A stretch of DNA of 64,000 nt from Phialocephala subalpina. Lineage: Eukaryota > Ascomycota > Leotiomycetes > Helotiales > Mollisiaceae. This document shows positions 5,645 through 28,812 of the stretch, one piece after another. The notes below the pieces were generated by a model. The model was not told the DNA's origin and made no database searches. It saw only the letters and a list, made by a program, of their open reading frames with translations. The first letter of the stretch is position 1. Each line of letters opens with the position of its first letter. The stretch covers positions 171,404 through 235,403 of the forward strand of contig FJOG01000031.1 of NCBI GenBank assembly GCA_900073065.1. The letters run 5' to 3'. The position numbers were made by a program, and so were the translations under genes.

Positions 5645-6471
5645 AGCTTGCTGATAGCGTAATGTAAAGTAGATGAAGTTGGATCTGCTGTAACGAAGTG
5701 TTGCTGATGGACTGAGAGATAATGATCACTTTAACCTTCCCTGTGATCTAGTACTTTCATACAACGCCTTGTTCTAGCGGAGCAAGCACTCCACATACTT
5801 CAATGACTACCGGGCAACGAGGATCTCGAAATTGTGCCAATCGGCCTCCAGCGCAGGAAGGAAGTTGACGACAGCGCTCAACGAGTGTCGCGGGTCGATT
5901 TGCGAACTATCTAGCCAGCACTTGCGGGTCATCAGGAAGTTCAAACAAGGCTAGGTCATCAAAAGATCCTACAAGAGATTTTGCCATGGCAGAAATTTGC
6001 TTCGACTTTGATGTGTCGACTTATACCGCGCAAATGTAAGCGTTCGGGGAAAGCAGAGGAGAGAGAAAGCGTCAATGAGAGGGAGATATTCGAACAACCT
6101 AAAATGAGAAGGCAAGAATAGCTTGGGTCTGTGAACGTGTGAGAAGTAGCTAGCGAAACAGGATTTAGCGAGTGAACTCAGGCACATAAGAGAGCAAAAC
6201 CCTCAGCACAGGATTTTTGTGATGGAGATACTTACTTCTATGATAGATCAGGGAGCAAAATAGATCACAAGATTCTGTCAAAATGGAGTTGGGAGTTGAA
6301 ATTGGTTTTGTGTATAAGTGTATTCAGTTTAGTAACAGGGGTTAGTAGCAGGGGAGGGTTACGTACTTTCAAAGTTGCGATCTCGACAGCCAGCTGTCAA
6401 GAAGCTTCCTTTTAAAATATTCCATCGATCCTGGTATCTTGATCTTTGGTTTCTTTGAGACATCTTCACTC
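5645..6471. other. Intergenic stretch without supported gene
   Basis: About 830 bases with only short open frames on both strands. I see no intact gene, repeat or transposon end. Confidence 0.4.
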
Positions 6472-7886: not shown

Positions 7887-10800
7887 TCACAAAACAAACA
7901 ACACCACCACCAAGAAGATTAACAACATCGATATCACACTAACACTCAAGACAACACCACCCTCAGACTTCGAGCTCGATGCTTGAGGGATCTCCGGGAA
8001 CGGATGGATAGCCGTGTCATCGACACTCTGGATCGCCGGACTCTCTACATGCATGTTCTCGGGAGCTTTCTCTGCTTTATGATCGTGAACCGCGTGGTGT
8101 TTGGATACAGCACTCTGTGGAGCAAGCGTCTCAACAGCTTGTTGCTGTGAGATAGGCGCCTGTTGTGGTACAGCGTCGTGAGGTATAGCAGTCTCAGATG
8201 GGAAGGTCGTTGCTACCGAGGTTTGAGGAGCGGCTGTGTGCAGGATAGAGCTATGAGGCGAAGCACTCCAAGAGGTCGAGTTGAACATGGTCGAGTTCAG
8301 CATCGCGGAGCTAGAAGAAGGGCTGTATGAAGTAGAGTTGTAGATGCTGCTGATGCTTGATGAACTCAATCTCAAGGACAATGGCGACCCTTCAACATTT
8401 GTGAAGATCGGAAGCTGGAAGCCAGACGTGAGCGTGACGCCAGAGCAGGACGCGCAAGTATAAACCACAGGAGGAGTATATGGCGATGGAGCGATACCAG
8501 GGCTGCTTCTGCAAAGCGTCCGCGTGATGGTTACTCTAGATGACGGGCAGGAATAGTGTGCCGCTGACATTTGGCATGGGTAACAGGGCTGTCCAGCAGT
8601 TGCAGTATTCCAGAGCTCGGTCGTATCGCTGTAGAAGGTCTCCGTGATGTAAGATGTTGTTGTTAAGCCATCGTTGATGGTGATCTCGACGATGATATCT
8701 ACAATGATTGTCACAAGAATGCCGATGACCTCCTTGGGCTCCGAAGATTGCGTCGGTTCTGAAGCTTGCACATTTGAGGCCAATTCTGCATGTTGAGATT
8801 CCGCAGGAGAAGGAGGCTGAGCAGGAGGATGGGCAGGCGGCGAATCTGGAAGGAGTGGAGTTTCGATCGGACTCTGGGATTCGGCAGGCGGTGGAGCTGG
8901 GGGCGGTACCGATGGTAATGGTGGATAGCTCGTAGTATACACAGGTATTGAAACCGTTGCGGTCTTACCCAAGGGGCAATTGGTAACAAGTACAGGACAT
9001 GACGTAATGGTATACGTGATGGCAGTATGTACCGTAGCGGTTGTCCAAGGAGGTAGCTGTGGAGCTTGCGTGACTGGATGGGCCGAGGTAGTAACAGAAA
9101 TGATCTGCGTGGTCTTGCTTCCAATTGGGCAATCTGTGATGACCGGAGCACAGGTTGTGATAGTGTCGATGACTGTTGTGTAGATGGTTTCTGTTGTCCA
9201 AGTAATTGGAGGTTCAAGAATTGGGGTGATGAGTTGTGGGGCTGAAAACACAGGAGTTGATAGGAGACGAAGAGGAGACACAGGTAGAAGACCTGTTGTT
9301 GATAACGATGTTGAGATTTCCGCTGGTGAAGATAATGTTGTGACAGCGGATGTAAGGATAGGTGTAGCTGGCTCAGTGATGGGCGCCAGAGACGTGAGCA
9401 CAGCTGAGGATGAGGTACTCGATTGGACGATTCTAGATGTGTTGTGCCATCTTGACATGGTATTGAAAAGCCCGTGAGTAGAAGATGGTTGAGCCAAAGT
9501 AGATTGGGGTTCCGATATGGCCAAGGTTGAAAGTGGAGAGGCGGGAATAGCAGAGGTCTCTGTTTGAGGACTTGCTGGAGTAAATATGATTGAGGTGGTG
9601 GTAGATGCCAACAGTTGCGAAGCTGTTTCTTGAACATTTGAAGTAACTGGGAGAACAGTCTCTTGGTGACCGGAAGATGCACTACTGTGCGCTGCTGTAG
9701 GAATGGAATACCCTTCTGATTGAACCGTAGCTGGCGAGATGATCGAGCGATGTTCTGTTTGACTCTGAGCTGCTAGTGAGATCTCTGATAGAGTTGGTTG
9801 TCTTTCTAATGAAGCGCTTAGAGATTTCTTGGATGCGACACCAGAAATTAGCTCTGAGATGCTAGGAACGGCCTTTGAAACCTCCGATTGTGCGGCTGAA
9901 GTTTCTGACAGGATGGTCTTGGCTCCATTAATGACAGAGGTCATTGGAGAAACCATTCCCGGCACAGTCGAAGCAGTCGTCGAGAGTTCTGAGGAAGTCA
10001 ATGGAGGCGGGATCTCTATCTGTGATGTGACCGAAACCAACGATGTTGAGCTAGATGCGCGAGATATTCCGAAGACAATTGACAAGTTTCCATATATCGT
10101 ACTTGAAGAACTGAGCATTCTTGTATGGAAAATATCGAGAGGCGCCGTTGTCGGTGTAGCAGAGCTTTCAGAGTAAGACAAGAATTCTGCTGGCGCTGTC
10201 CCGGATTGGGTAGTTAACGATGCTGGACTCTCGAATGCAGAGCCCTGAGCGTGGGAAACCGTGACGCTTGTAGTTTGGCTTTGAACTGAAGAGATGCTGA
10301 CATCCGAAAGAAGCGATGTCGATAGAGTAGCACTTCGCAACGAAGTCACTGCAGAAGTCCTGACCAAGTTTTCTGATACTGAGATGGGCGATGCTTCTGA
10401 GAGTATGGCGGAGGAACTTGATTGGAGAGCGATTGATGTGGTCGTGACCGCGTTCGATACCTGTGACGCGGGGAAAGCTACAGTTTCCGATGCAAAAATT
10501 GCTAGGCTTGAGGTTAGACCGCTTGCATGAGTGCTAAGAACATTTAACATCGATGCAGTGACAGCTGTTGAGCTCGCAGAAGACCTAGGAACCTCAGTGG
10601 GAGCCAAAAGGCTGAAAGTCGATGTAGTTGTGACAGAGGCTTCGATGACACTTGAAACCAATTTGGTTGAAGGCATGATGCTCTCGTGCGCCGTGGGCAA
10701 CGAAGTTGGCGGGCTTGTCAAAACAGATTTCCTTGGGAGAACAAACGACAGATTTCCGTACATGGCGCTGCTAGAAATACTCTGAGCACTGGCGAAACTT

Positions 10801-13800
10801 GAAAACGATGAGGTGACAACTGGAGAAGTCTCTGCTTGGGCGACACTTGCTTCTGTGGCTGGGCTGCTGGCAGATGAAGCGGCCTCCGTCTGGGTGGCAG
10901 TTGGCAGAGCGTTGGTAGACGAAATGATAACACTGCTTGCGGGCTCTGTAGTAGATGGCAATGTTGGTGAGCCAAATATTGGACTTTCCAGCGGAGTCGA
11001 CAGAAGTGCGGAAGATGTGCTTGTCTCAAGTTCAATGATACTTGAAAGTGTTGCGGCGGAAATGAGAGAAATCTCTGGAACAGCAAGAGTTATTGTCAAC
11101 AACTCAGTGCTTTGAGAAACAAGACTCTCTGACATAGCAGTTGGCGAATGGTACTCGGCTGACATCTGAAGCGAACTTTTGGAAAGAGTTTCCAAGGTAC
11201 TTGATGTCAGTGAGCTCAGGTGCGCCAGGCTCTCGGTCTGCTGCGCGGCTGAAGTCGGCAATAGTGTGTTGATCGTTGTCGACGGCGTTGTCTCGAAAGC
11301 TGGGATATGAGAAACCTCTGTAACGGATGGCTCCACGGCCATGCTTCTCGAGGACGGCAGAGAAGCAGTCGTGCTAGCCAATACCTCCATGACTGAAGTC
11401 AATCCAATCAATGAGGTTCTTTCTGGAGTCTTCAAGGCAGAAGACACACCCACAAGAACGCTTCCTGATTCGGTGGCCGTTGTCGAGGCCAAATTCATAT
11501 CCTCAGAAGTTGACGCAAGGCTTGGCATCTGACTTTCCAAAGTGGCAGGTGGAAATGTAGTTGCAATTCTCGAAGTGTTCCAGAAGCGAGCCCATGAACT
11601 CGTCGCCGCAATGGTTGACGAGTATGTGAGTGACGATAGCTCATGAATGAACGTTGGGTTCACTTTCTCTGTTTCCAATGCGAGGCTGGATGAAGCAGAT
11701 GACTGTTCTTTGATGCTTGATGAATGACCGGCTGACTCAATTATCGTGGTACTTGGGAAGGCAGCTGACGAAACTTGAGCTGTTGAAGAGCTTTCCGATT
11801 CGATCTTAGGGCTTGTAGTCAATGAGGCAAGTGTCGATTCTATGGTTGTCGTCTGGCTTGCTGCGGGTGGACTGGGGGTCAGAGTCGAAGAGCCGAGCAA
11901 TGCTGCTGCCGTCGATTCCGAGTGGGCTGAAAGAAGACTTTCAGAAATTTTGATCTCGGAGGTCAATGGTGACTTCGAGCTTGTTGTGGAGCTCAGTAAC
12001 TCGGTCTCAAGCGTTAGAGATGGCGAGGCTAGCTGTGATGTCTCAGACAATCCCGTAAGGATGGCGGATTGAACAACAGCTGACGACCTAAGCGATGATG
12101 ACACTGACACAAACTCGGAATTGCTAGCCGTTTCAATTCCTGGAGGTATATTTGTTGCTGCCAACAGAGATGCTTCATGAGTTGGAGAACTTTCATGCTC
12201 TGTCACCGAAGGGATGAGCGGAGGCAGTGAAAAACCTGCAAGAGTGCTCTCCAAAGTCAAACTTGGAGCCAAAGGCGATACCTGTAGAGTTTCTGTGGAA
12301 GTTGTAACTTTTTGTTCAACGTTCGTGTTGGAGATAAAGCTGGTGCTCGAAGTGTTCCAATAGCGAGTGTATCTTGATGACAGAACTTGAGAAGTCAAGC
12401 TTGGCACCTCTGTGTGGAGGCTTGAAGCAATTGATTCGATCGATGCTGTGCTTAGGTCCGTCTCTTGGTTGTGCAATGCAATGGTCGAAGTCTGGGTCTC
12501 ATAAGGACCAGACTCAGTACCAGGTAGTTCGGGTGATGCCGAAACAAGGCTGCGCTGTGCCTCTTGGGTGGCAATCAGGGATGGCGTGAGACTTGCCAAC
12601 TGTGTTTCTGAAGAAGATACAGACAAGGAAGCGGAAAGCTGGGTGGACTCAACTTGTGCAGTTGTGTTAACAGTCTGACTAAGAACCAAAGTTGGGATGG
12701 GTGCTACACCGGTGAGAGAGACACCAGCAAATGATACCAAGATCGAGCTTGGGGTGAAGGCCGATGCTGTTTCAGCAGTGGTTGGCAAAGATTCGAATGC
12801 ACCTGAGATCGTTGATACAGAGCTTGAGACCAATGAAGGCACTGGCGAAATGTTGACAGAGGTGGCAGCTGAGGTGAGCGAGAGCCTTTCTGGTGTCGTG
12901 ATTACCGAGGTCTGAACTGACTGTGATATCAACAATGGGGACAAAGTCGATTCCAGAACAACCGAGATGGCGATGCTCTCAGCCCGGGTTCTTGACGAGA
13001 CTTGTATCGAGGTTCGAGCGATTGCAGTTGATGCTGACCCAAGATTTGAAGCACTTGGTAGTATACCAGGCTGGGACAAGGTCTCTGTAAATGATGCGAT
13101 CATAGTCGTAAAGTATATCAAGGAAGTCAAGATAGATCCAACAGAAGCTGATTGGGTGTTTTTGGACGAAGACTGAGCAGGTACAGAAGCCTCGGCGACC
13201 GATGGCGAGGTCGTAGTCTCAATGCTCCCAGTGGTAGATTCCAGAGAGAGTGTTGTTGAAATTATCCTAGACAGAACGCTGCGAGAAGTGTTTCGGTACA
13301 GAACTCCCCTGCTGAAAGACACAGGACCTTGTTGACTCGACATAGGAGACACCGATATAGTTTCGAACGTCGTGAAGGACTCGGCAAGTGTGGCAGACGA
13401 TTCGAGAATCGTAGTTGATTCCTCGATGATACCTGATGCGGAGGACTCAGATTGTATAGCTGTTGTCGTCGACTTGTGGAGACCTGGATCATACGGCGAT
13501 GTAGTGATTCCAGAAGCAGATGGAGGCGACGGCGTAGTCGATTCTAGCGAAGCAATACTGATCAATGACTGTGTCGAATAATATGGCTCAAGGGTTGTTG
13601 ATGGGCGCATACTCTCGTGGGTCATGCTCGTTTCCATGGCTTCTGCTGATACAACACTTGTGAGTGACTCTGGCACAGGTAATCCAGAACCCAGCGATAT
13701 ACCTGAGGTGAGGGACACTAGCCTTGCTCTCATGGTTGGGGAAGCAAAACTCATGAGGGACTCAGCTGTAATAAACTCTGGCACAGTCGTGAAGTTGGCG

Positions 13801-16800
13801 CTTGATGACATACTGCTTAGTGATGCCGGATACTTAGACGATTCCGTAAGCGAGGACCGCGGACTGGTTGCCATGCTTGAGGGTGTCGACACCATTCTAC
13901 CTGTCGATGAGATGGCTAAGGTGGATTCGATCATCGACGACTCTAGGGCAGTCGTGAAGCTTGATCGAATCTTATTGGTAGGCAAGGCGATGCTCATGAA
14001 AGACGAATATTGAAGGTCTGTCGATAATCTCAAGCTGGTCGGAAGCGTGTTGCTGGCAAAGCTGAAGCTCGATACAGACTCAGTGGTTGATATCGACGAC
14101 ATTGTCATGGTTGCACTGACGGGAGTCTTTGTCGTAGAGTTCAAACTCTCATATTGACTCGAAGACTCGATGGTGGTCGTGATGGTCGGGAGAACTGACT
14201 GAGTCGCTGGTAGTGACAATGTCGTGAAACCAGTCATTGCCGATAGAATGCTTGAGCCTTGAAGGGCATTGTAGCCTGAAAGAACCGACATTGGCATTGT
14301 AGTTGACTCTGGCGGAGGTTGTCGTGATGTCGTTGCTATCGGAACACTCTCAAATACAGCAGTCGTAGTCATGGATAACGTCGTAGTCGTGTTCATGTAT
14401 CGTCGTAGGGCGGTACTGAAGGGGCGATTGTTCCAACTGCTCGTGCTGATGATCGGCAGAACAGAAGCTGAGATTGCCGGTGCTGATGATTCGATGGCTG
14501 TCGTACTCTCCATCTCCAAAATAATGCTTGATGATTGGCGTGTAGCAAGTGTTTGTGTCGATGATATTTCTCCCATGTTACCCTCCACCGTTCCAACCGA
14601 TTGTGTTCCTGAACTGCCAGGTGACGATGCAGACAAAGTCACGCCTGAAGCTCCACTACCCGAGAATATGCCCAACTTTGACCTAGAAGTGCTTTCCACC
14701 GCAGATGTTACTAGGTATGTTTGCGCAGATGCCGTAGTAGTTACTGTTGAAGTCTCAGAGAATGGTCCAGAAGGTGAAGGCGAAAGGGTGTGGAATCCAT
14801 TGGCTGATGGCAAGGTCGTATAAAAATTCGAGAGCGATCCAATTGTGGTAGTACCAGACAGAACCATTTGACTCATATGAAAGTGACTTGAGAAATATTT
14901 AGACTTACTAGTACCAGATGAAAACTCCACCATGCTCGACAAGCTTTCGCTGACGGCTGACGATACAGATTGGGGGCTTGAGACGACCGAAGTTGAGAGG
15001 GCGGCAGATGTAGCATTTGCCGATTCGGTAGAGGATGCAATTTGGATCGAGAGAACAGTCGAGGAGGCGACAGATTGCAAGGCACTTGCAGAGGTAGACA
15101 AGGACAAGGCCGCAGAGACCGACGATGATTCCAGGGACGAAACGCTTGAGAACAAGCTGCTGGATGCCGAAGGGGTGACCGTAGATACCGAAGATGCTTC
15201 CAGAGTCGAAAGGCTTGAGAACAAGCTGCTGGGCGCTGGAGTAACCGTAGAGACCACACTTGAAACCATGGAGCTGGATTCTACATTGCTGAGGGCTGAC
15301 GAGACCACCGACGAAGAGAGGGTCTGTGTGACGGAAGCAGAGGTTGCCTGGCTTGCAACAACCGAGGAAGTTGCGAGGGACGAGCTCTCCAGCGTGCTAG
15401 ACACAGATGACTCCGTTGGTGATGTAGATGAGACCAGAGCAGATGAGGACACAGCTAGTGTAGAAGACGCCAAGGACAAGGTCTCTGTAGCTGAGGACAA
15501 GATGGCAGAGGCGCTGAGTTGGGTCGAGACAGCACTTGTCTGGATCGATGAGGATACCAAGACAGATGTTGGGACACTGGATGTGAGCTGTGTGGACGAA
15601 ACAGCGACAGAGGATTCAATGCTTGAGCTAGCGACGGTGCTCGATTCCATGGTCTGGCTCGACATAATCTCAGATGAGGCCACCGAGGTGAAAACAACCG
15701 AAACCTGGGAGGAGAACACGATCGATGAAGACACCGTAGCAGACACAGCAGGAGTAAAAACCACTGATGAAATAGCCGATGAGGATACGAGCGAAGAGAC
15801 GAACGAAGTCTCTGAAACTGGTGCCGACGAAGACGTGATCTGTGAAGATACCACCACGGATGGAGATACAGACGCAGATGCAGAGGAAACGACAGATGAC
15901 GTGAGCGAAGCAGACGAAATTTCTGTAGAGATTCTTGATGACACGGCAGGCGAAGAGAGGATCTCCGTAGCTGACGTGAAGCTGGACACTGAAGCGGATG
16001 ATACCAAGCTTGAGCTGACCATTGTGCTTGAAAGCATTGATTCCGAAGAAGCCAATGATGAGCTTGACTCGACAACAGTTGAGGAAGCAGCAGAGACCAA
16101 TTGAGTTGCAGAGGCCGTGGGCGATACCAAAGAGCTGACTTGCGTGCTGGAGACCATGACGGACGGCATAGACGAGCTGACCACAAGGGACGACGAAACT
16201 AATACCGAGCTTGAAACCATTGAGCTTGAGATCATAACCGACGAGGATGGCAAGACGCTGCTGCTTTCGACCTTTGTAGACGATTCCACGGCCGAGGAGC
16301 TTGGCACAACTGTGGATGAGACAATTGATGAAGACAACAAGGTCTGGGATGCGGATACAGAGATGGAAGTCGATGGCAGAACGGTTGATACAACGCTGGA
16401 AACTGAGCTTGAAACCATAAAGCTTGAGACCATGACAGATGACGACAATACGCTGCTGCTTTCGACAGTTGCACTCGAGACGACAGACTTGGAGCTTGGC
16501 ACAATTGTGGATGAAACAATTGATGAAGATTCCAAAGTCTGAGACTCGGATACAGAGACGGAAGTCGATGGCAGAACGCTTGAGGCAACGCTTGAGAACA
16601 CACTGCTGGATTCGACAACGGTAGACGAAGTAACAGATGAGGAGCTTGGCACAATTGTGGATGAGACAACTGATGAAGATTCCAAAATCTGAGACTCGGA
16701 TACAGAGAACGAAGTCGAGGACGCCGGGACACTTGATATAGAGCTGCTTTCGATGACCGTGGACGAGATAACAGCTGAAGAGTTTGGCACAATTGTGGAT

Positions 16801-19800
16801 GAGACAACTGATGAAGACTCCAAAGTCTGAGATACCGATACGGAAATTGATGATGAGGACGGCAGAACTGAAGCGAATGATGACGAGAGCTGAGTGGTGT
16901 TCGCCAAGAAAGTCATTGAAACGACGCTGCTGATCTGAGATGGAGCCAATGTAGCCACACTGCTTGAGGCAAGTGCAGATGATTGGATCTTGGACGAGAT
17001 CTCAGTGCTTGAAGCCAGTACAGAGGTACTGATCTGGCTTGAAACGAGCGATGAAGTGATTTCAGTAACTGACGAGGTGAGCGATGTCGAGGTCAACGAG
17101 GAAGTCGATGGCACAGCGGTAGAGCTTGCCACGCTGCTGGATGCGAGAGTGGAAGGTTCGACCATTGTAGAGCTGATCTGTGTGCTGGAAGCCATGGCAG
17201 ACGACGACATGAGGCTGGAAGCAATCGAGGAAGATTCGAACAACGAAACGCTCCCAGTGACGCTTGCGGATGAGGCAACCGATGAGGACGCAATGCTGGA
17301 GGAAACGAACAACGAGGTACTTTCTGCGAGTGTCGAAGATGGCATGGAGGTCTCGAGGCTGCTGGATACCAAGGTCGAAGATGGAATGAGGGTCTCGCTC
17401 TGGGAAGTCAAAGATAACAAGGATGCAATGCTTGAAGCAATCGAGGAAGATTCCAAGACAGACGTGCTCTCGACAGTTGCGGATGAGACAACAGAAGATG
17501 ACACGAGGGTAGAGGAAGCGACCAAGGAGATGCTTGATGATACAGTGGTCGATGACTCGAGCGTCTGTGAAGATGCCAAAGTCGAGGACGAGAGTACCAC
17601 GGTTGAGCTTGCAAGGGAGCTTGATACCAATGAGCTTTCCAGTGTAGATGATGCGAGGCTTGAAACCATAGTCGAAGATGGTATGCTGCTGCTTGGAACA
17701 ATCGATGTCTGGCTTGCGAGGCTGGAGGCAATCGAGGAGAGCATGCTTGAAGATTCCATCACGGACGAGGACATTGTCTCGGATGAAACAGCTGTCGATG
17801 GTGCCAAAGACGAGATGCTGCTGCTTGCGACCACGCTCGTTGCTGAGATGGACTCAGACTGAGTAGCGGAAGATGACACAACAGAAACTTGGCTTGACAG
17901 GACCGATGATGATGCCAGTGTAGATGTTTCCACCAACATGCTGCTTGAAACTGCGCTCGATGCCGAGACGGACTCGGACTGAGTAGCAGAGGATGACACA
18001 ACAGAGAGTTGGCTTGACAAGACACTTGACACAGCTGAGGACACGAGAGACGAGGTTTCCAAGGCAGATGTTGATGCAACAGTTGTAGAGGGCACAGTCG
18101 AAGATTCCAGGGCGCTGCTTGATACCAGAGTCGTGGATTCCAGGGCGGATGTCGAGGCAATCGATGCGCTGCTGACCAAGGATGACGACAACGAGGAGGT
18201 CATTGAGACTTGGCTCGAAACAACACTGGTTGCAACTGAGGATGACTCAAGAGTAGATGATTCAATTGTGCTGCTTGCAATCGACGAAGAGAAAACGGAA
18301 GAGACAACACCAGATGTCGAAACACTTGATGATTGCACTCCACTGCTGACCGACGACGCCAACGACGACACAAGAGAAGTCTGGCTTGAGAGACCAGAGC
18401 TGAAAACGGTGGATGAGACGAAAGCGGATTGCAGCGATGACACGGAGGAGGCAATCGATGAAGATTCGAGAACCGAGGATACCGTGGCGCTTGCGGATTG
18501 CGACGAAGATTCCAGGACAGACGATGAAAGCGTGACACTTGCGGATGGAACAGAGGATGACTCGAGAGTTGAGCTGGAGAGAACAACGCTTGAGGATACC
18601 GATGACGATTCCAGAGCAGATGTAGATGAGATGACGCTGACAATTGGCACAGAGCTTGAAACTGAGGCACTTGAAGCAACCGAAGATGATTCCAAGAGGC
18701 TTGACGAGAGCGAGCTTGATACCAATGTCGATGAAACTTGTACTGAGCTCGAGAGCGTAGCACTTGAAACAAGGGACGAGGACACCAAAGCAGACGTCGT
18801 AAGGCTTGAAACCACGGACGATGATTCGAGGACAGAGCTTGACAGCGTAGCGGTAGCAGTTGGCACAGACGAAGACAAAAGAGCAGAGCTTGATACCATG
18901 GACGAAGATTCCAACGTAGAGCTTGGAACGATGGTCGATGATTCCAGGGCAGAAGTCGAGAGCGAGGCGCTTGAGGTTGGCATAGACGATGATTCCAGAA
19001 CGATGCTTGAGACCGAAGCACTGGAGACAACAGACGATGATACCAAAGCAGAGCCCGAAACCAAAGTAGATGACTCGAGAACAATGCTTGAGATCGTGGA
19101 GCTTGAAACCATTGTCGATGATAGCATTTGGCTGGCAGATGGCATAGTCGAGGATTCCATGGATGTCGAGAACGAGACGCTGGCAGTTGGCACTGACGAT
19201 GATTGGACCACAGAGCTGGAAAGCACGACACTTGAAGCAGAGCTTGAGATCGTGACACTTGGTACAAGCGAGGACGATTCCAAAACAGAGATAGAGAGAG
19301 TAACACTTGAAGCGACTGAGGAAGAAACCAGGGCTGAGGTCGATGGCGTGGCACTTGTTGGCACAGACGATGATTCGGAAGTCGAGGTTGACAGCATGAT
19401 GCTTGATTGCATAGTCGATGTCTCGATAGCTGAGCTGCTGACAAAAACACTTGAAGAGACCAAAGATGAAACCAGAACGCTTGAGGTCTCGGATACCAAG
19501 GAGCTGACACTTGACGATGGCACAACAGACGAGCTGACAATTGCTTGAGAGGAAGTCTGAGATGATACGACAGATGAAGCGATGGATGAGCTTGGTAGAA
19601 TGCTGGAAACGAGGCTGGACACCACGGATGATGTGGCAACTTCGCTGCTGGCAGACGAGACCGAGGATACAAGCCTGGATGACAAAATCGATGAAACAAC
19701 TGAAGAAGCAACCGACGAGCTTTGGATGAGAGAGCTTGAGAGCGATTCGACAGATGAAACAGACGACGATGGTGCAAATGTGCTGACAGATAGCATCGAT

Positions 19801-22800
19801 GACATGAGGCTTGATGATAGCACCGAGGCAACACTTGCAGAGGACACCACAGACGAGCTCTGGAGGGAGCTTGAAAGCGATGATTCAACAAATGCAACAG
19901 ACGATGAAACCGTAGAGCTGATGGATGGCATAGATGACATGAAGCTTGAAGACAAGATCGAAGATACAGTGGCAGAGGCAGTCGATGACGATGGCATAAC
20001 CGATGACATGATCGATGAGCTTTCCAGAGTAGAGCTAGCAACAGACGTCGACGATTCAACGCCTGCGGATGAGACAGAGCTGAATACCGACATTGATGAA
20101 GCCATGCTTGAGCTGATCAGGGTGCTTGAGGAAACGGTTTGGCTTGAAACCAAGCTGCTGGAAGCAATGACGGAGCTTGCAATCGAAGATGAGGATTCCA
20201 AGACTGTGGATGAGACAGAGCTTGAGACTACCATCGATGAGAGCATGCTTGAACTGGGTAGAACGCTGGAAGTAGCAATCGAGCTTGATTCCACAGTCTG
20301 GCTTGACAGGCTGGAGAAGGAAACAGAGCTCGATGGCGACATCAATGATACCATAGAGCTGACGACGGTGCTGGGCACAACGCTGGAGCTGGCAATCGTG
20401 CTTGATTCGACCAAGCTTGAGGACACGAAGCTTGAGACGGAAGTTGAAAGCGCTATGCTTGAGCTGACCAGAGTGCTTGATACCAGTGGCGAGCTTGAGA
20501 CCAGGCTGGAGCTGGCAATCGACGACGACGATTCGAGGACTGTGGATGATACAGAGCTGGAGATCGGCATAGACGACGATACCATGCTGGAGCTAAGGAC
20601 CGAGCTTGATTCGACAGTGCTTGAGGCAATGCTGGAGGCAACGGTGCTGGGGACAAGATTGGACACGAGGCTGGAGCTGGCAGCTGATGACGATGATTCG
20701 AGGACTGACGAGGAGATGACAGAGCTTGAGACCGACATGGAGGAAACCATGCTGGAGCTAACCATGCTGCTTGTAACCATTCGCGAGCTTGAAACCATGC
20801 TGGAGCTGACAACAGAGCTTGATTCGACGGTGCTTGAGGCGAGGCTGGAGCTGATAACCGAGCTTGATACAATAGTCTGGCTGGATACCAAGCTAGAGCT
20901 GGCAACTGATGAGGATTCAAGAGCTGTGGATGAGACAGAGCTTGGGATCGACATCGAGGACACCATGCTGGAGCTGAGGACGGAGCTTGAGACCATTGGA
21001 GAGCTTGAAACCATGCTGGAGCTGGCGACGGTGCTTGATACCATTGGCGAGCTTGAGACCAATGAGCTCGATTCCACGGTGGAGCTTGACACAACGCTCG
21101 AGCTGACAAGGCTGCTGGAAGAAGCAAGAGTCTGGCTTGAGGCCAGGCTGGAGCTAACCAGGGAGCTGACTGACAGAGAGCTGGATGCGACAGAGCTTGA
21201 TTCCACGGTAGAGCTGACCATAGAGCTTGATGAAAGCGTGCTGGCAGCAACCGAAGAGGATACCAATGAACTTGAGGCCAGAGAGCTTGATGGCAGAGTG
21301 CTTGAAGAGAACGAGCTTGAAACCAAAGAGCTTGATTCCACGAACGAGCTTGACACGCTGGAGCTGACAAGGGAGCTGGACGGCAGAGTGCTGGAAGCAA
21401 ATGACGAGCTTGAAACCAGAGAGCTGGAAACGATGCTTGAGCTTGAAATGATAGAGCTTGAAACAAGGCTTGAGCTGCTGATGAGAGAGCTGGAGACCAT
21501 GCTGGAGCTTGATACCATAGTGCTTGAAGGCATGCTTGAGCTGACCAGGGAGCTTGATACGATGCTGGAGCTTGAAACCAAGGAGCTGGACGGCAGAGTG
21601 CTGGAAGCCAAGGACGAGCTTGAAACCACAGAACTGGAGACAATGCTTGAGCTTGATACCAATGAGCTAGAAGCAAGGCTTGAGCTGCTGATAAGGCTGC
21701 TCGAAACCAAGCTTGAGCTTGACACGATGCTGGAGCTGACCAAGGAAGAGCTGGACACCATAGAGCTGGATGGCATGCTAGAGCTTGAGGCCAGGGAGCT
21801 GGAGACAACGCTGGAGCTTGAAACCACGGAAGAGCTGACCACAGAGCTTGAAGACACGAACGAAGACATCATAGACGAGTACATCGAGCTGGAAGCTGAC
21901 AGTGACGAAGACACCATCGAAGACACAAGCGACGACGAACTTTCGAACGAAGAAGATGAGTACGACGACGAAGACGATGATGCACAGTCCCAGCAGACCA
22001 GAGAGTACATGCTCGCAGAGGACATCGTAGGCATGGCCGGTGGCGCATACGTTGGAGCCTTCGCAGTTGTTGCTGGCGTCACAACTGGTGCCGCTTCGGA
22101 CGAAGTCACTGGAATGACGATCGCTGTAGTTGAGGCAACAGGTGCTTGAACAATCGAGGTCGATGTTGTGACGGCAAGGATGTGTATTTCTTCGGTGCTG
22201 GATGCGAAAACTTCTGTTGGTGTAGCGGACTTCTCGACAGAGACACTTGGTGATGCAACCTCTGGAGACGTGGCCGTAACAGACGCGGAATGTGTAGCAA
22301 TTGGTACAGTGCTTGAAATAATCTTCTCGGAAGTCGAGATAGTTGAAGCAATGACAGGTGCTGCACTTGATGAATAGAAGGTGCTTGATGCAATTGGCGC
22401 AGTGGAACTGGCGTTCAGGCAAGCATCTCCCATACCGATCTGGAAAGGCGATTCAGTGTATCCTCCAGGAGTAATACCATTGAAAGTGACCAAGATAGTT
22501 CCTGACATCGAGTTGGGGTAGTTGAACGAAGCAACACCGCCAACGAATAGCGAGTTGGTCCAGATCAAGGCACCGTTCGAAATCGAGAAAGTAGTCATGA
22601 TGTTGGAAGCGTCATATGGACCGAAGGAGAAGTCCATAGAGCCGGCTGTAATGTCTGTAGGCGTGGTGAAAGCATACAAGCCATTGGTTTCGAGAGTACC
22701 ATCGGGGTTTACTACGAACTTGGAGGCGTCGGAACACGAGATCGTGATGGTAGATCCGTTGGCAATGTAGTTGTTGTCTTGTAGTGCCGGCGGTATCGGG

Positions 22801-25800
22801 TGAATATGGAACGGCATGACCGAGCTGGTAGCGGGCAGAATCGATATAACGGTCTGCGCTTCTGAGATGCTCGGTGCGACGGTCGTGTGCGCAATAGCCG
22901 ATGACACAGGAGAGATAGCAGAGGAGACAACCTGCGCAGCGCTTGAGTAGAAGCTGGTGGATGGGAACGCAGAAGAACTGCTGTTCGTGCGACATCCTGC
23001 GGCTTCTGGGCTGTACGACATCATCATGTTGAAGACTTGTACTGAATAATCGGAAGGAATGACACCATCGAAGGAGACAAGAACCTTTCCAGATCCCGCA
23101 GTTGGGTACGCGAATACCACTTGATGGTTGGGAGCTGAGAATTGGTTGTTGGTCCAGGTGAGGATGTCACTTGGGAACGTGAATTGGGTCAAGACAACAT
23201 CTGAGGAGGTGTTGTATGGCCCGAACTTCAGGTCCGTGGAACCGATTGCGATTTCCTCGAGCGTTGCTTGGGCAAACAGGCCGCCAATTTCCATTGTCCC
23301 ATCGTAGTTGACGGTGAAGATTGGCGCGGAGCCACAAGAATCAGTGATCGAGACAGTATCGTCGTTGTTGAGTACAAGGAACACAGGTGATGTAGTACCT
23401 CTCTTCATCTTGCGAAGCGTGGAGGTCACGTTCCTGAATTGACCGTAGAATTGAGCCATCTGGCTGGGTGCCGGTGGAAGTGGAGTAACCGATGCCACGA
23501 TTGGGGAATGGCTGGGCGCAACAGTGGTATGTGGAAGTACCGATGGAGCCACAACTGAAACCGCAGTGCTGACGACAGTGGCAGAAGCCCCAGCAGATGA
23601 GGCTTGAGGCGCACTTACACTCAGTATTGTTGATACAGTTGGGGCGGATTCAGCCAGTGATCTGGAGGTGAAGCCAGAGCTGACTTGGGGTGGTCCGGAT
23701 TGGGTGGATGCCACGGAGGACACCTCAGTCTGGCTGAGGGCCTGTATTGTGGAGGCGAAGCTCGAAGGCACCAAGGCAGACGAAGTCTCGGTTGCCGACG
23801 AAGAGAGAGATGCTTCGGTGGCGAATGAGGAGATAGAGGAAGAGATCTGGGTTGTCAGTAACGACACAATGGTGGAGGCTGTCAAGGTTCCCATGAAGCT
23901 GGAGCTTAGGAACAATGAGGCCGATGCACTGCTGATGAGAGCCATTTCAGATGTGGAAGCCGTTGCGCTCGTGATGTTGACTTCGACGCTGGCGACAGCA
24001 GAAGAAGATAACAACGCCGATGATGAGGATGGCAGAGGTGACTGTGTTACAGCGGAGGAAACTATTATCGCGGTCAGCGTCATGTCTTGTGACATATTAG
24101 ACGTCAAATGAGTCAATCTTGAGCTCTCAGAACTACCAACAACACCCGACACTATCAAGGTTGAAGATTGAGAGTCTTGCAAGGTCATGGTTTGTCTGGT
24201 ACTGGTCCACGATTGTGTCGTCCTGGAGGGTCGATTGGTCGTTTCGATTGGTCGAAGCGAAGATTTGTAGTCGAAGGATTCGATAGTCGTAGAAATCGAC
24301 TCGAGCGTCGAGATTGTCGTAATTATCGAAACGGTACCGAAAATTGAAGTGGTCGCGGATGTGGTGGGGTTGGTGAAAGTGCTGGGAATAGTGGAGATGC
24401 TGGGGCTGCTGACGGAGAACGAACCCGAGCTTATCGTAGTGCTACTTGTCGAAGATAGCAGAGATGATAGAAGGGTAGGATACTCGAAAGACGATGGCAA
24501 AGGTGTCTGAGGGAAACTACTGAAGAGGGGCGTCGTAGGTCCGTTCGAGATGGTGATAGCATTCATGACCGACAGGGTAGACAATTCGACACTTCCTTTG
24601 CTTGAGCTCAAGGTCCCAATGCTCGGGGTGGTCGAGGGATTGAGGGACAGATCGCTGGAAGCGACGGAAGGTGGGTTTGAATAGAATATTGAGGTACTGC
24701 TTTGTTGTAGTGATGGCAATACACTCGAGGCGCTAGACAAAATTGTCGTATAGACTACAAATCCACTACTTGAACCTCGAAGTATCAAGGTAGTTGATGA
24801 AAGGAAAGTAGAACTGTCAGCCGGTTGAGGGGAGATGATCAAGATGCTTGATACTCCACTGCTGGACAGTGATGGAAGTTGTGAGTTGGACAAGCTTGAA
24901 AGCTGAAGGCTTGTCGAGAGTGTCGTCGATGCTACCTCTTCACTAGTAGACCTCAGGATGACCGAGGTGAGAACAGTTGACGGAAGATATCTAACAATGT
25001 CGGTCGTCTGGAGGGAGATGCTGGAGGCACTGAACAATGCGCTGCTTTGCCCCATTGAAGAAGGCAAGGTCGGCAAGCTGGAAAGCGGTTGAGCGTGAGT
25101 GGACAACGAGCTTATCTTTGATGTAGAACTCACCACCTCAGTACTTTGCAGCAGTGAAGGTGGCAAACTGGACATCAACGAGCTTAAAAGTTGTTGCCGA
25201 GAAGAGCGGATACTCGACTCAGTCGATATAGAGGTAGACTGACTGCTTTGTAACGATGAAAGCGGCCGGCTAGATGAACTCGAAAGCCGGACTCCAGAAG
25301 ACGCAGAACTCAGCACCTGACTGCTATGAAGCAGTGAAGCCGATAAGCTCGACATACTCGAAAGCTGAGAGGACGCAGAGCTTATCAAAAATAACAAGCT
25401 CGACGCCGAGGGGGTCTCGGTCTCGACGGGGCTCGAGAAGCTCGACACGACATTGCTCGAAAGTAATGACGATGCTAAGCTGGACGAGCTTGAAAGCCGT
25501 TGGACCTGAAAGGACATTGAGCTGAGCGCGGATACAGAGCTCAATGCAGACGCTGCGGTGACAGACGTGGTTTGCGTCACCGAAGATATAATGCCGGAGG
25601 AGACGATACTCGAACTGAATAGAGCATATGAAACTAGATAGTCTATGCTGCTAGGTATCGAAGACAATACACTGGAGGAACTTGACAACCTTGGTAATTG
25701 AGAAGGCGCAGAGCTAAGTATGAATATCGAGCTCCATGGTGAGGTTGTTGCCGTGACCAGAGAAGAGAGGGTTACCGAAGATATAGATGGTGTCGAGAAT

Positions 25801-26330
25801 ACAAAGCTAGATGGCACCGTATTCGGTGAAGTCGAGCTCGATAGGCCAATTGATGTGGAGCCTATATTGCTGGCGGATACCGAAGGCGAGGAGAGTAGTT
25901 GGACGTGCGAAGATGCAGAGCTGAAGAGAGAAAATGAGCTTAACAAGGACATTGTATCCAAAGAAGATGCCGAGACCGAAGATATGCTGCTGGAAGGTAT
26001 GATACTGTGAAGCGTCGATACCGAAGTCGTTAACCACGTAACCTTGTTGACTGAAACTAGCGATGTTTCAGCTATAGATATAGATGGCGTGGCAGAAGAG
26101 GAAGAGGAGGATGTAGAAGAGAGCACGTTGAAAGCTGTGCTCCCACACTCCCAGAACTCTGCCTGGGTAGCGACATTGCCTCCGGACAGAGTAAAGGTTG
26201 AGTATATGGGATTGCCATTGACAAGTAGTCTACCAATGTATTAGAAACAATCACAAACAAGAATTTCTACGTACACATTTCCTAACAGAAAGAGCACAGT
26301 CTGGAGGCGGTTGGGGGGTCGAAAGATCAT
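7887..26330 (-). CDS. Giant Ser/Thr-rich GPI-type cell-surface protein (~6,132 aa)
   Basis: An uninterrupted 18.3-kb exon (26229-7887) is joined, in my model, to a short first exon (26330-26275) by a 45-nt intron (GTACGT..CTAATAC..TAG, phase 2). The N-terminus MIFRPPNRLQTVLFLLGN then resembles a signal peptide. Approximate order of parts: Ser/Thr-rich 60-940; compact domain 940-1,100; second compact domain 1,160-1,300; SSSxx repeats 1,430-3,800; Ser/Thr stalk with spaced aromatic N-glycosylation motifs 3,960-5,620; YTT..TSC..TNCP motifs near 5,700; Pro-rich segment near 5,800; Cys-containing segment 5,890-5,950; and a final hydrophobic tail after SSSKSEGG typical of a GPI-anchor signal. The compact domains resemble DUF7908-type domains of fungal wall proteins (from memory). 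The likely role is a wall-linked adhesin or structural glycoprotein. Exon 1 is the least certain part; the ORF itself is certain. Confidence 0.8.
14890..22000 (-). repeat. Coding tandem SSSxx repeat array of the giant protein
   Basis: About 7.1 kb encode an almost continuous run of short units such as SSSLVSSSSMV, alternating with ESS variants; Ser exceeds half of residues. Units are 5-6 residues, often paired as 11-residue blocks. The regularity is highest near 21.9-20.4 kb (protein N-terminal side) and drifts towards 15 kb. Such arrays change length by slippage and unequal recombination in fungal adhesin genes, and they would be heavily O-mannosylated. The opposite strand reads as acidic Glu/Asp/Leu frames up to 855 codons, a by-product of Ser codon choice. 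Confidence 0.85.
22395..23460 (-). other. Two compact non-repetitive domains inside the giant protein
   Basis: These two segments (23460-22990 and 22810-22395) break the Ser/Thr-rich background. Each contains a serine-rich-free stretch with GTMEIGGLF or GTLETNGLY, then FGPY, then LTWTNNQF or LIWTNSLF, then a GKVLVSFDGV or GTILVTFNGI strand. The repeated order shows an internal duplication. The pattern resembles the DUF7908-type domain of fungal wall proteins; that name is from memory. Function is unknown. They could be the ligand-binding or assembly heads of an otherwise stalk-like molecule. Confidence 0.6.
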
Positions 26331-27623
26331 TGTCCGTGAGGACGAGGTGGAGAGGAGAAGCGACACCAGCCACAAGTTGGCGAGGCCTTCGCAGGCTGAC
26401 TATCAGACAGTAACGAAGGTAAGCCCAGTATTGGGTGAAGTAAATCAAAGAACTTTGTTTCATGTGTTGGTGTTGATATCAGTTTGCGGTATGACCAGAA
26501 AACGAACGAAACGGGGGAACTTGGGTATATAAAGATACTTTGCGTGTTGGATTCCAGGGGGAAGGCGAGGCGAGGGGCGCGTCCACCTCGAGGAATTCCA
26601 AGGGGCGCACAAGGGGGCTCGCTTGAGTCAAGTACATTTGAGACATTTCCACTACGCGTGAAGATCCATATCATACCAGATAATCTGAGATACGCGACGG
26701 GGCACAAAAGTTGCGGGGGATGTAGCTACTGCTCAAAGCTGTGAAGCTTAACAGCCATCACAACACAGTTCATTGCCATGTACTTTGCACACAGTTCTCG
26801 CAAGTATCGTAGAGCTTTTGCTGCTACAATACGTACAATTTTCCATGTATGCAGCAGTGAAGGGGGTGAGCAATTCTGGACGGTTGACGCCACCCGTCAA
26901 ACGCGAGAATCCAACAAAAAACCTCCTCCCAGAAGTTTCGGCAGATTAAAATCGATCCAGAATGGAGAGAAAAGGGAGGAGGAATTCAGATGGCTCATGC
27001 ACGAGGAAAGGGAGAATTCAATTAGGAATCTGGATCTCTTAATTGACGCGTCGAATTGATGACTCTGTCAACAAATCGATGTATAACTTTCGCGTCTCCC
27101 TTTGCCTCCTTGGCGTCGACTTTATGTCTTCAAGAATGGCATTGTGGCCTTACGCCGGATCAGTGTGGATGAGGGGGATTTGAACATAGGAAATGCGCCC
27201 ACTGGGGAATTACATCGGGGCAACGAGGCAGGGTCGGGGTATATTTCAAAGCAAGGCAAAGGAGGCAAGGCAAGTTCAAGACACTTCACGATCAATGTGC
27301 AGATGCTTCATACGTTCAATGTCATTATGCTAGTGCAGTCCGTAACGCCTGCAAATCAGACCTCCAACGCCCGCTAAGTCGAGGATGTTTCCCCAGAGGC
27401 CACTAAATAAGTGCGCCATCATACATTCAGTGCGAAGAACTATCATGATAGTCCTTGCAAACCAAAGCCTTAAGCTTGGTATTCTGCGTTGTCGAAATCT
27501 GAGTGCTTTCCATAAGCCTGCCAAAATCAACGGTGGGGGTATATTCGCACTCTCGCATTTTTTGCTGTGACGAAGGGACGGAAAATCAGTACTCGATACA
27601 ATGGCCTGGACAGCTGTCGACGA
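26331..27623. other. Intergenic region between giant gene and med19
   Basis: About 1.3 kb containing the promoter of the giant gene and the 3' flank of med19. Only short unsupported frames are present. No repeat or RNA gene was recognised. Confidence 0.45.
26523..26534 (-). promoter_or_regulatory. Possible TATA element of the giant gene
   Basis: On the minus strand this reads CTTTATATACCC, about 195 bases upstream of the proposed ATG at 26330. It is a candidate only. It could equally be irrelevant, because the transcript start is not known. Confidence 0.3.
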
Positions 27624-28812
27624 TCAAGCTCCGACCATTCCAGGACCGTAGCTATTGTGTCGAACAGGAGCCGATGGGTAACCGTGACCGGGAGTATTCT
27701 TCGCTGTGTGAGCTAATGCAGACACAACTAATGAAGTGTGAGACGAACCTTCTTAGGACGCTTTCTGTTACCACCCCTCTCGTCAGCATCGCCGCCGGTA
27801 GAATATCCGACCTCGTGAGCGTCATCATCAACGTACCCCTCTCCGTAGCCCTCAAAACTGTCATCACCATATCCGCGCTTCTTCGTAGCTCGCTGTGGGC
27901 GGGACTTTTCGGATGCGATAGTTCGTGATACTCCAGCTGCCTGTGGACGTGCCGCCTTTGCACCATTGACTGCCTTTGCTGGCTCTGCCTTATCTGCCAT
28001 ATCTCCAAGTACAGAAGCATCCCACATCGTCTTTGGTATCGTGCCTTTGGACATCGTGAAAGCCTTACTGAGAACACTATCATCCAGCCCCAAGCCATTC
28101 TCAATCTCCTTGCCTCGAGTATGCTCAGCATCCCATTCCTCGGCTGGCGCAATCATCATCATGAATAAGGACTCGGGTGAATCGAACTCTCGCTTTTGGG
28201 AATCGAATTGGCCACTCACGCCATGAGTCTTGATGTGATTCTTGTAGGTCTTTCGGAGCTTGATACCCTTTGAATGGCCATCCGGACCAAATCGTGCAAC
28301 CGACTCCGCGAGATCATTTAGACCATACATCGGGAACAAGTCATCGCAGAGCGAAGGCTGGCTTGGGTTGTGTGCTACATATCACGTCCGTGTTAACCAA
28401 GTTCTGCAAAGAATTGCGAAGGGCTTGAGTTATACAGCGCCTGGAATACTAGACCAGGGAGTGGCAGATCTGCGTGAAAGAAAAAAGCCTTACCACGTCT
28501 GCAGAGCAGGTATTTATCGCCAACGTCCAAATGAAGGTCGTCGATACTGACTCGGCTCTTCTCGACATGGGCCTTCTTCTGCTCTCGATCTCCATTGTCC
28601 TCAATATCCCGCTTGCGCTTGTTAGAGACTTCGTCAATCTGCATTGCATCGGGTACCATTTCCGAATTCAAGGAAGACATGCTGCCGTTGATACTGTGTG
28701 CGGGTGTAGGGAGGGAGTGGGTGGTTCTGGGTGAGGTCGAGGGTTTCGCAGGAAGCTCGTGGGAGGTATATGTCGATGGACTCTGTGGTGTTCTAGGGTG
28801 GCCAGACGACAT
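27624..28812 (-). CDS. med19: Mediator complex subunit 19 (Med19/Rox3)
   Basis: The three-exon model is 28812-28494, 28374-27749 and 27698-27624, giving 339 aa. Introns are 119 nt (GTAAGG..TAG) and 50 nt (GTTCGT..CTCAC..AAG). The product is the head-module subunit that links Mediator to RNA polymerase II transcription. Seen: an N-terminal Ser/Pro/Thr-rich segment, YLLCRR, then the signature LFPMYGLNDLAESVAR and LRKTYKNHIKTHGVSG, a helical region with DAEHTRGKEIENGL, and a C-terminal basic segment KRPKKN ending SYGPGMVGA, as in fungal Med19. The last exon was chosen because only splicing at 27748/27699 restores this family ending; reading straight on from exon 2 stops at 27728. ATG 28812 begins MSSGHPRTPQ; the same frame is open upstream but without family character. 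Confidence 0.85.

Follow-up and report, generated by a model that had tools for sequence, protein, structure and literature searches.

The 64,000-nucleotide stretch of Phialocephala subalpina DNA analysed here (C71:171404-235403; hereafter the window) carries on its minus strand a gene with an intact frame for a giant Ser/Thr-rich protein, which we refer to as the giant. In the spliced model the gene spans 7887-26330 and consists of a 56-bp exon, a 45-bp intron and a single 18,343-bp exon, and its product is a chain of 6,132 residues with a mass of 615 kDa and a predicted pI of 4.5. These are the coordinates at which the original prediction, made from the sequence, had placed a protein of some 6,100 residues encoded in one 18-kb exon. 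Serine (2,006 residues) and threonine (684) together account for 43.9% of the 6,132 residues. The stop-to-stop open reading frame (ORF), at 7887-26240 on the same strand, counts 6,117 codons; its first codons are intron sequence, and reading through the intron meets a stop. From its N-terminus, the chain comprises a signal-peptide-like start with a short N-terminal piece, a first stalk segment (A), a pair of DUF7908 domains, two further stalk segments (B and C), Cys-containing motifs and a GPI-type tail, as detailed in Table 1.

Stops number 147 and 111 in the other two sense frames of exon 2 and 516, 96 and 395 in its antisense frames. For 200 first-order Markov sequences of equal length, the longest ORF had a mean of 244 codons and a maximum of 482. 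About 4.0% of the single-base changes in the giant frame would yield a stop. The serine bias itself lowers the stop density: the other two sense frames contain 14 and 19 stops in the 7.1 kb of segment B, 42 and 22 in segment A, and 66 and 54 in segment C. The serine codons of segment B keep stops rare in all of its sense frames, and an open frame by itself therefore exaggerates the case for selection in that part of the gene. Each segment draws on all six serine codons. Antisense shadow ORFs of up to 862 codons lie over the Ser-rich segment B (window positions 14887-22149, plus strand) and constitute a trap for gene callers.

When exon 2 was compared with itself, 25 high-scoring segment pairs (HSPs) were obtained at E<=1e-6, with starts confined to codons 1000-3999; segment A has no such start, and segment C none beyond codon 3999. 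All 25 are in frame, and mismatches are most frequent at third codon positions (rate 0.324, against 0.197 at first and 0.115 at second positions). Across 11 repeat families, whose copies are 60-87% identical to their own reference, every one of 59 start-to-start spacings is divisible by three, although these spacings depend on one another and divisibility is favoured by codon composition. Elsewhere in the genome (68.1 Mb in 119 contigs, the scope of all our own-genome searches), another contig (C43:1775976-1776625; L016:1976-2625) carries about 650 bp of stalk sequence, with main alignments 68-73% identical to the gene and with its reading frame interrupted by a frame change and a stop. The 40 kb around this fragment contain no further match to the gene or the window (E<=1e-4), and it is an isolated, decayed copy of the stalk, in contrast to the intact frame of the giant. 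Taken with the in-frame repeat spacings and the third-position bias, this copy supports selection keeping the giant frame open, as had been proposed from its openness over 18 kb. The accompanying description of the DNA as highly repetitive holds at most for the middle of the gene, where degenerate repeats occur, but not for most of its length, which is free of DNA-level repeats. Exact direct repeats in the coding sequence reach 34 bp at most, Tandem Repeats Finder arrays cover 1,230 of the 18,444 bp of the gene, and near-identical tandem repeats of the Flo/Als type were not found in the stalk. Because exact repeats are this short and most of the length lacks DNA-level repeats, expansion during assembly is unlikely, and the concern that the array might be an artefact is weakened. 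Reads of ordinary length would probably place the degenerate middle repeats, and the gene lies well inside its 671-kb contig.

Both ends of the protein, judged by eye and hydropathy, are compatible with the signal peptide and GPI-type tail predicted for it at the outset. The signal-peptide-like start covers residues 1-24, ending at 26214 in exon 2, and the C-terminal tail reaches a hydropathy of 3.14 in the window from residue 6111. A C-terminal query against the own genome returned six further matches at five loci (E 7.1e-16 to 2.6e-4), and several ORFs that share the C-terminal Cys motif have GPI-like tails by eye. A solved-structure search by sequence with the C-terminus gave no credible match (best E 0.36). 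Upstream of the tail lies a hydrophobic stretch (residues ~5850-5875), absent from the earlier account, which is possibly an aggregation-prone or membrane-spanning segment; aggregation-prone stretches are reported in known adhesins (PMC6023273).

The two compact domains that had been noticed within the chain proved to be tandem DUF7908 domains, both over the family cut-off; the scores in Table 1 are those of the cut-out domains, and in place they reach 36 and 49.3 bits. They are identical at 45 of 111 aligned columns (41%). A 1,400-residue Pfam scan did not report the pair, probably through composition filtering. Three long pieces scanned at E<=1 gave no family and five short pieces were scanned as well; over all the pieces scanned, which together span exon 2, DUF7908 was the sole match above cut-off, and PA14, GLEYA, Als N and Flo11 gave no match, with the proviso that long Ser-rich pieces can hide matches, as happened with DUF7908. 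A three-sequence DUF7908 profile found no solved structure at E<=10, and our literature search returned no mention of DUF7908. Designed 'Cake' propellers aligned to a two-domain query over 32 residues (best E 1.3e-5), with no stretch passing alone, and were set aside as a chance or turn-motif likeness.

The stalk is regionally patterned. Segment B contains 40-59% serine in nine 250-residue windows and has a serine period of 5.35 residues (spectral peak 29.3, compared with at most 15.2 in 500 shuffles). The position of the peak ranges from 4.8 to 6.0 residues across six windows. The period is pronounced over the first half of the segment and weak in the final 400-residue window, where its power of 8.6 equals the whole-segment shuffle mean (8.6). 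Hydrophobic runs of at least four residues occur once in this segment, versus a shuffled mean of 27.9 and minimum of 15. A pentapeptide-repeat fold was considered for segment B and not accepted (Pentapeptide_4, E 0.091, 13.3 bits against a cut-off of 38). Segment C, in turn, carries seven aromatic N-glycosylation sequons (aromatic-x-Asn-x-Ser/Thr) spaced 215-367 residues apart, where 0.50 are expected and none of 10,000 shuffles reaches seven (maximum 4), for a pattern picked after inspecting the sequence. Sequons as a whole are not enriched there (11 versus 13.1 expected), and one more aromatic sequon falls in the DUF7908 domain region (0.58 expected). Our comparison within the genome covers the frames at five other loci: the decayed stalk copy (L013) and L014 have none, L012 has two, and L003 and L005 have one each. 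Among 21 pairwise alignments of the spacers around the seven sites, four exceed z = 2, with a highest value of 3.3, and common descent of whole units in segment C is neither shown nor excluded. The motif resembles, in sequence, the five-residue 'enhanced aromatic sequon' of protein engineering, in which the aromatic residue and the glycan stabilise a turn (PMC7390894).

Table 1. Features of the giant gene and its product, in window coordinates (all on the minus strand).
Feature	Position	Strand	Description
Exon 1	26275..26330	-	ATG at 26330; most of the signal-peptide-like sequence; splice model
Intron	26230..26274	-	45 bp, GTACGT...CTAAT...TAG; also recovered by intron-pattern scan
Exon 2	7887..26229	-	18,343 bp, one open frame up to the stop
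Stalk segment A	23466..26120	-	~residues 56-940; Ser/Thr/Leu-rich; N-terminal side of the DUF7908 pair
DUF7908 domain 1 (PF25485)	23052..23354	-	E 1.5e-7, 32.1 bits (cut-off 27)
DUF7908 domain 2 (PF25485)	22461..22769	-	E 4.2e-13, 50.1 bits (cut-off 27)
CWDC (CxxC) motif	21984..21995	-	C-terminal of the domain pair
Stalk segment B	14916..22013	-	~residues 1425-3790; Ser runs and short hydrophobic runs, degenerate repeats
Stalk segment C	9216..14915	-	~residues 3791-5690; Ser/Thr/Ala/Glu; one 48-bp tandem array; seven aromatic sequons
Aromatic sequon 1 (N3965)	14385..14399	-	aromatic-x-Asn-x-Ser/Thr
Aromatic sequons 2-4	13284-13298, 12348-12362, 11571-11585	-	segment C
Aromatic sequons 5-7	10746-10760, 10080-10094, 9435-9449	-	segment C
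C-x6-CPxG motif, two repeats	8946..9200	-	also in other wall-type ORFs of the genome
Internal hydrophobic beta-branched stretch	8676..8732	-	~residues 5852-5870; hydropathy up to 2.33
Second Cys-rich stretch	8445..8585	-	CYPC and CASC motifs; no Pfam match over cut-off
GPI-type C-terminal signal	7890..7970	-	small residues, then hydrophobic tail to the last residue

With a probability of roughly 0.6, we interpret the giant as a secreted, GPI-modified, wall-bound and O-mannosylated fibre, very long and brush-like, whose likely job is surface coating or adhesion. We infer secretion, GPI anchoring, glycosylation, chain extension and function from the sequence, and a role as adhesin, spacer or coat, as originally suggested, is plausible. 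The signal peptide would direct the chain into the secretory path, where about 2,700 Ser and Thr residues, along some 5,000 Ser/Thr-rich residues, could be O-mannosylated and the chain stiffened into a brush-like fibre; O-mannosylation is described as stiffening flocculin repeats (PMC6308950). The GPI tail would tie the giant to the membrane or to wall glucan, the two links given for such tails in PMC6023273. In segment B, short hydrophobic groups parted by serines may keep the long chain soluble and, once glycosylated, extended, and segment C may bear sparse N-glycans at its aromatic sequons. With about 4,800 residues separating it from the anchor, the DUF7908 pair would sit well beyond the wall, and some 900 stalk residues would extend further still. 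Mucin-type chains rise 0.2-0.3 nm per residue, at which the span from anchor to pair would be about 1-1.4 micrometres. DUF7908 is perhaps a binding module presented at the surface, with the fibre forming a steric outer layer. A more speculative proposal, which we regard as doubtful, is that segment C represents a new stalk design, with 1,900 residues nearly free of DNA repeats and an aromatic sequon every 215-367 residues, and that together with the rhythm of segment B it makes the giant a natural, regionally patterned bottlebrush on the micrometre scale.

Several observations weigh against the interpretation as an anchored, brush-like fibre. The DUF7908 pair is not at the N-terminal tip, unlike the binding domains of classic adhesins, and is preceded by the whole of segment A; AlphaFold2 models of three DUF7908 sequences reached a mean pLDDT of 34.6; and no relative outside the own genome emerged from our protein-database searches. 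The N-terminal hydropathy is modest, at 1.35 in its highest 19-residue window (from residue 9), and the hydrophobic stretch before the tail could be a membrane segment that alters the anchoring. Of the 102 gap runs in the BLASTN self-alignments, 46 have a length that is not divisible by three, possibly through gap placement. Finally, an upstream ORF runs across the start codon of the giant.

The alternative that survives best, which we nevertheless consider unlikely, is a passive structural or steric mucin-like coat without ligand binding, in which DUF7908 merely spaces or crosslinks the chain. The dominance of the stalk in the composition and the internal rather than terminal position of the domains would fit such a coat, and crosslinks could form through the CxxC motifs that occur behind the domain pair and close to the anchor; the retention of two DUF7908 copies above cut-off suggests instead a function beyond spacing. 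It is improbable, to a clearly greater degree, that the locus yields two or more shorter proteins, by cryptic introns, internal starts or proteolytic processing, and no mature chain of 6,132 residues. Exon 2 does contain a few donor-like hexamers (GTAAGT 2, GTATGT 2, GTGAGT 1), and the overlapping upstream ORF could limit translation, but the exon has no in-frame stop, no copy of the GTACGT donor and, on its sense strand, no intron-like cassette in 18.3 kb, versus 3.0 on average over 100 Markov sequences. By the same pattern, which is not very specific, window positions 26401-64000 hold 2.4 and 4.4 cassettes per equal length on the two strands. By far the least probable explanation is that a low-complexity array expanded recently, or that the assembly is at fault, and that the frame is open chiefly because stops are scarce in Ser-rich DNA: the stop-poor sense frames and long shadow ORFs of segment B are what it would produce, but it is disfavoured by the shortness of the exact repeats, the third-position bias, the in-frame spacings, the lost frame of the C43 copy and the lack of self-HSP starts in segment A and in C beyond codon 3999, where the other sense frames are well supplied with stops.

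The upstream ORF has 70 codons (26251-26463, minus strand), begins 133 bp before the ATG of the giant and overlaps its start codon in another frame; translational control of the giant by this ORF is possible. The interval of about 1.4 kb between the start of the giant and the stop of the neighbouring Rox3 gene (26331-27727) is without an ORF of 200 codons, and a TTTATATA-like stretch was seen by eye near 26530. The neighbours look ordinary and comprise genes for a P-type ATPase, Rox3, an RRM protein, a sulfate permease, a succinate dehydrogenase-type flavoprotein, HET and a tannase/feruloyl-esterase-type product. The HET and Rox3 matches, together with the short intron, would fit a filamentous ascomycete. 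A bacterial-code scan of the window found no tRNA, and no Rfam match exceeded the gathering score.

Within the genome, DUF7908 occurs at two loci, the giant gene and one on contig C64 (L012, C64:1545000-1554000). The frame of the latter has a Ser-rich stalk followed by DUF7908 at the frame end, with adjoining exons, one of which gave a WSC match below cut-off (23.8 versus 27.8 bits). For segment A, and for two overlapping stretches of segment C, self was the only reported match. The start of segment B additionally picks up the C43 fragment and, on C34, a Ser-rich frame of 1,363 residues (42% identity, E 1e-5), the latter probably a likeness of composition. By eye, the N-terminus of this 1,363-residue frame (L014, C34:293000-299000) resembles that of L003 (YDQDN...NCGT...VPS). 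In a protein database that may hold few fungi, no relative was found for region 905-1420 of the 6,117-residue frame (943 candidates scored), for an 1,800-residue frame that includes the two domains (7,993 scored) or for the other DUF7908 gene (621 candidates). As the first of these searches failed to list even the window's own protein, the result is not taken as absence from fungi.

The plan of a fungal adhesin, as outlined in two sources, consists of a signal peptide, a glycosylated Ser/Thr-rich stalk and a GPI signal (PMC6023273, PMC6308950), and adhesin-like GPI proteins often have 600-2,500 residues, many with an N-terminal ligand domain (PMC6023273). The giant shares with the Als, Flo and Epa adhesins of yeasts a Ser/Thr-rich stalk and, as judged by eye and hydropathy, probably also a signal peptide and a GPI-type tail, and differs from them in its 6,132 residues and internal DUF7908; it also lacks any adhesin domain known to the Pfam scans and near-identical tandem repeats. 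If made at full length, it would exceed more than twofold the range quoted for typical fungal adhesins, and it would offer a test case for the reach of a wall-anchored chain and for the means by which a gene of this kind stays intact in a fungus. Adhesion-titled articles, by the count in the same source, deal with filamentous ascomycetes in about 10% of cases, compared with 58% for Candida and Saccharomyces (PMC6023273), and that share indicates that filamentous ascomycetes are little studied for adhesion. Our literature search found nothing joining 'serine-rich adhesin' with ascomycete and genome, and other filamentous fungi may well carry giant frames of this Ser-rich kind. Among DUF7908 proteins, the giant carries two domains over cut-off, whereas L012 has one, which ends a shorter Ser-rich stalk, and the giant ties this domain to a very long surface-type stalk. 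Two frames of the same genome, L003 and L005, share the C-x6-CPxG motif of the giant, a Ser-rich stretch and a GPI-like tail by eye but, unlike it, have 447 and 727 residues and no DUF7908 match; the Cys-rich stretch of L005 looks WSC-like by eye. As the Pfam scans show no known adhesin domain in it, and as it lacks both near-identical tandem repeats and a binding domain at the N-terminus, the giant is not assigned to Als, Flo or Epa, and the best reading of its architecture is that it would work in the manner of adhesin-type GPI proteins.

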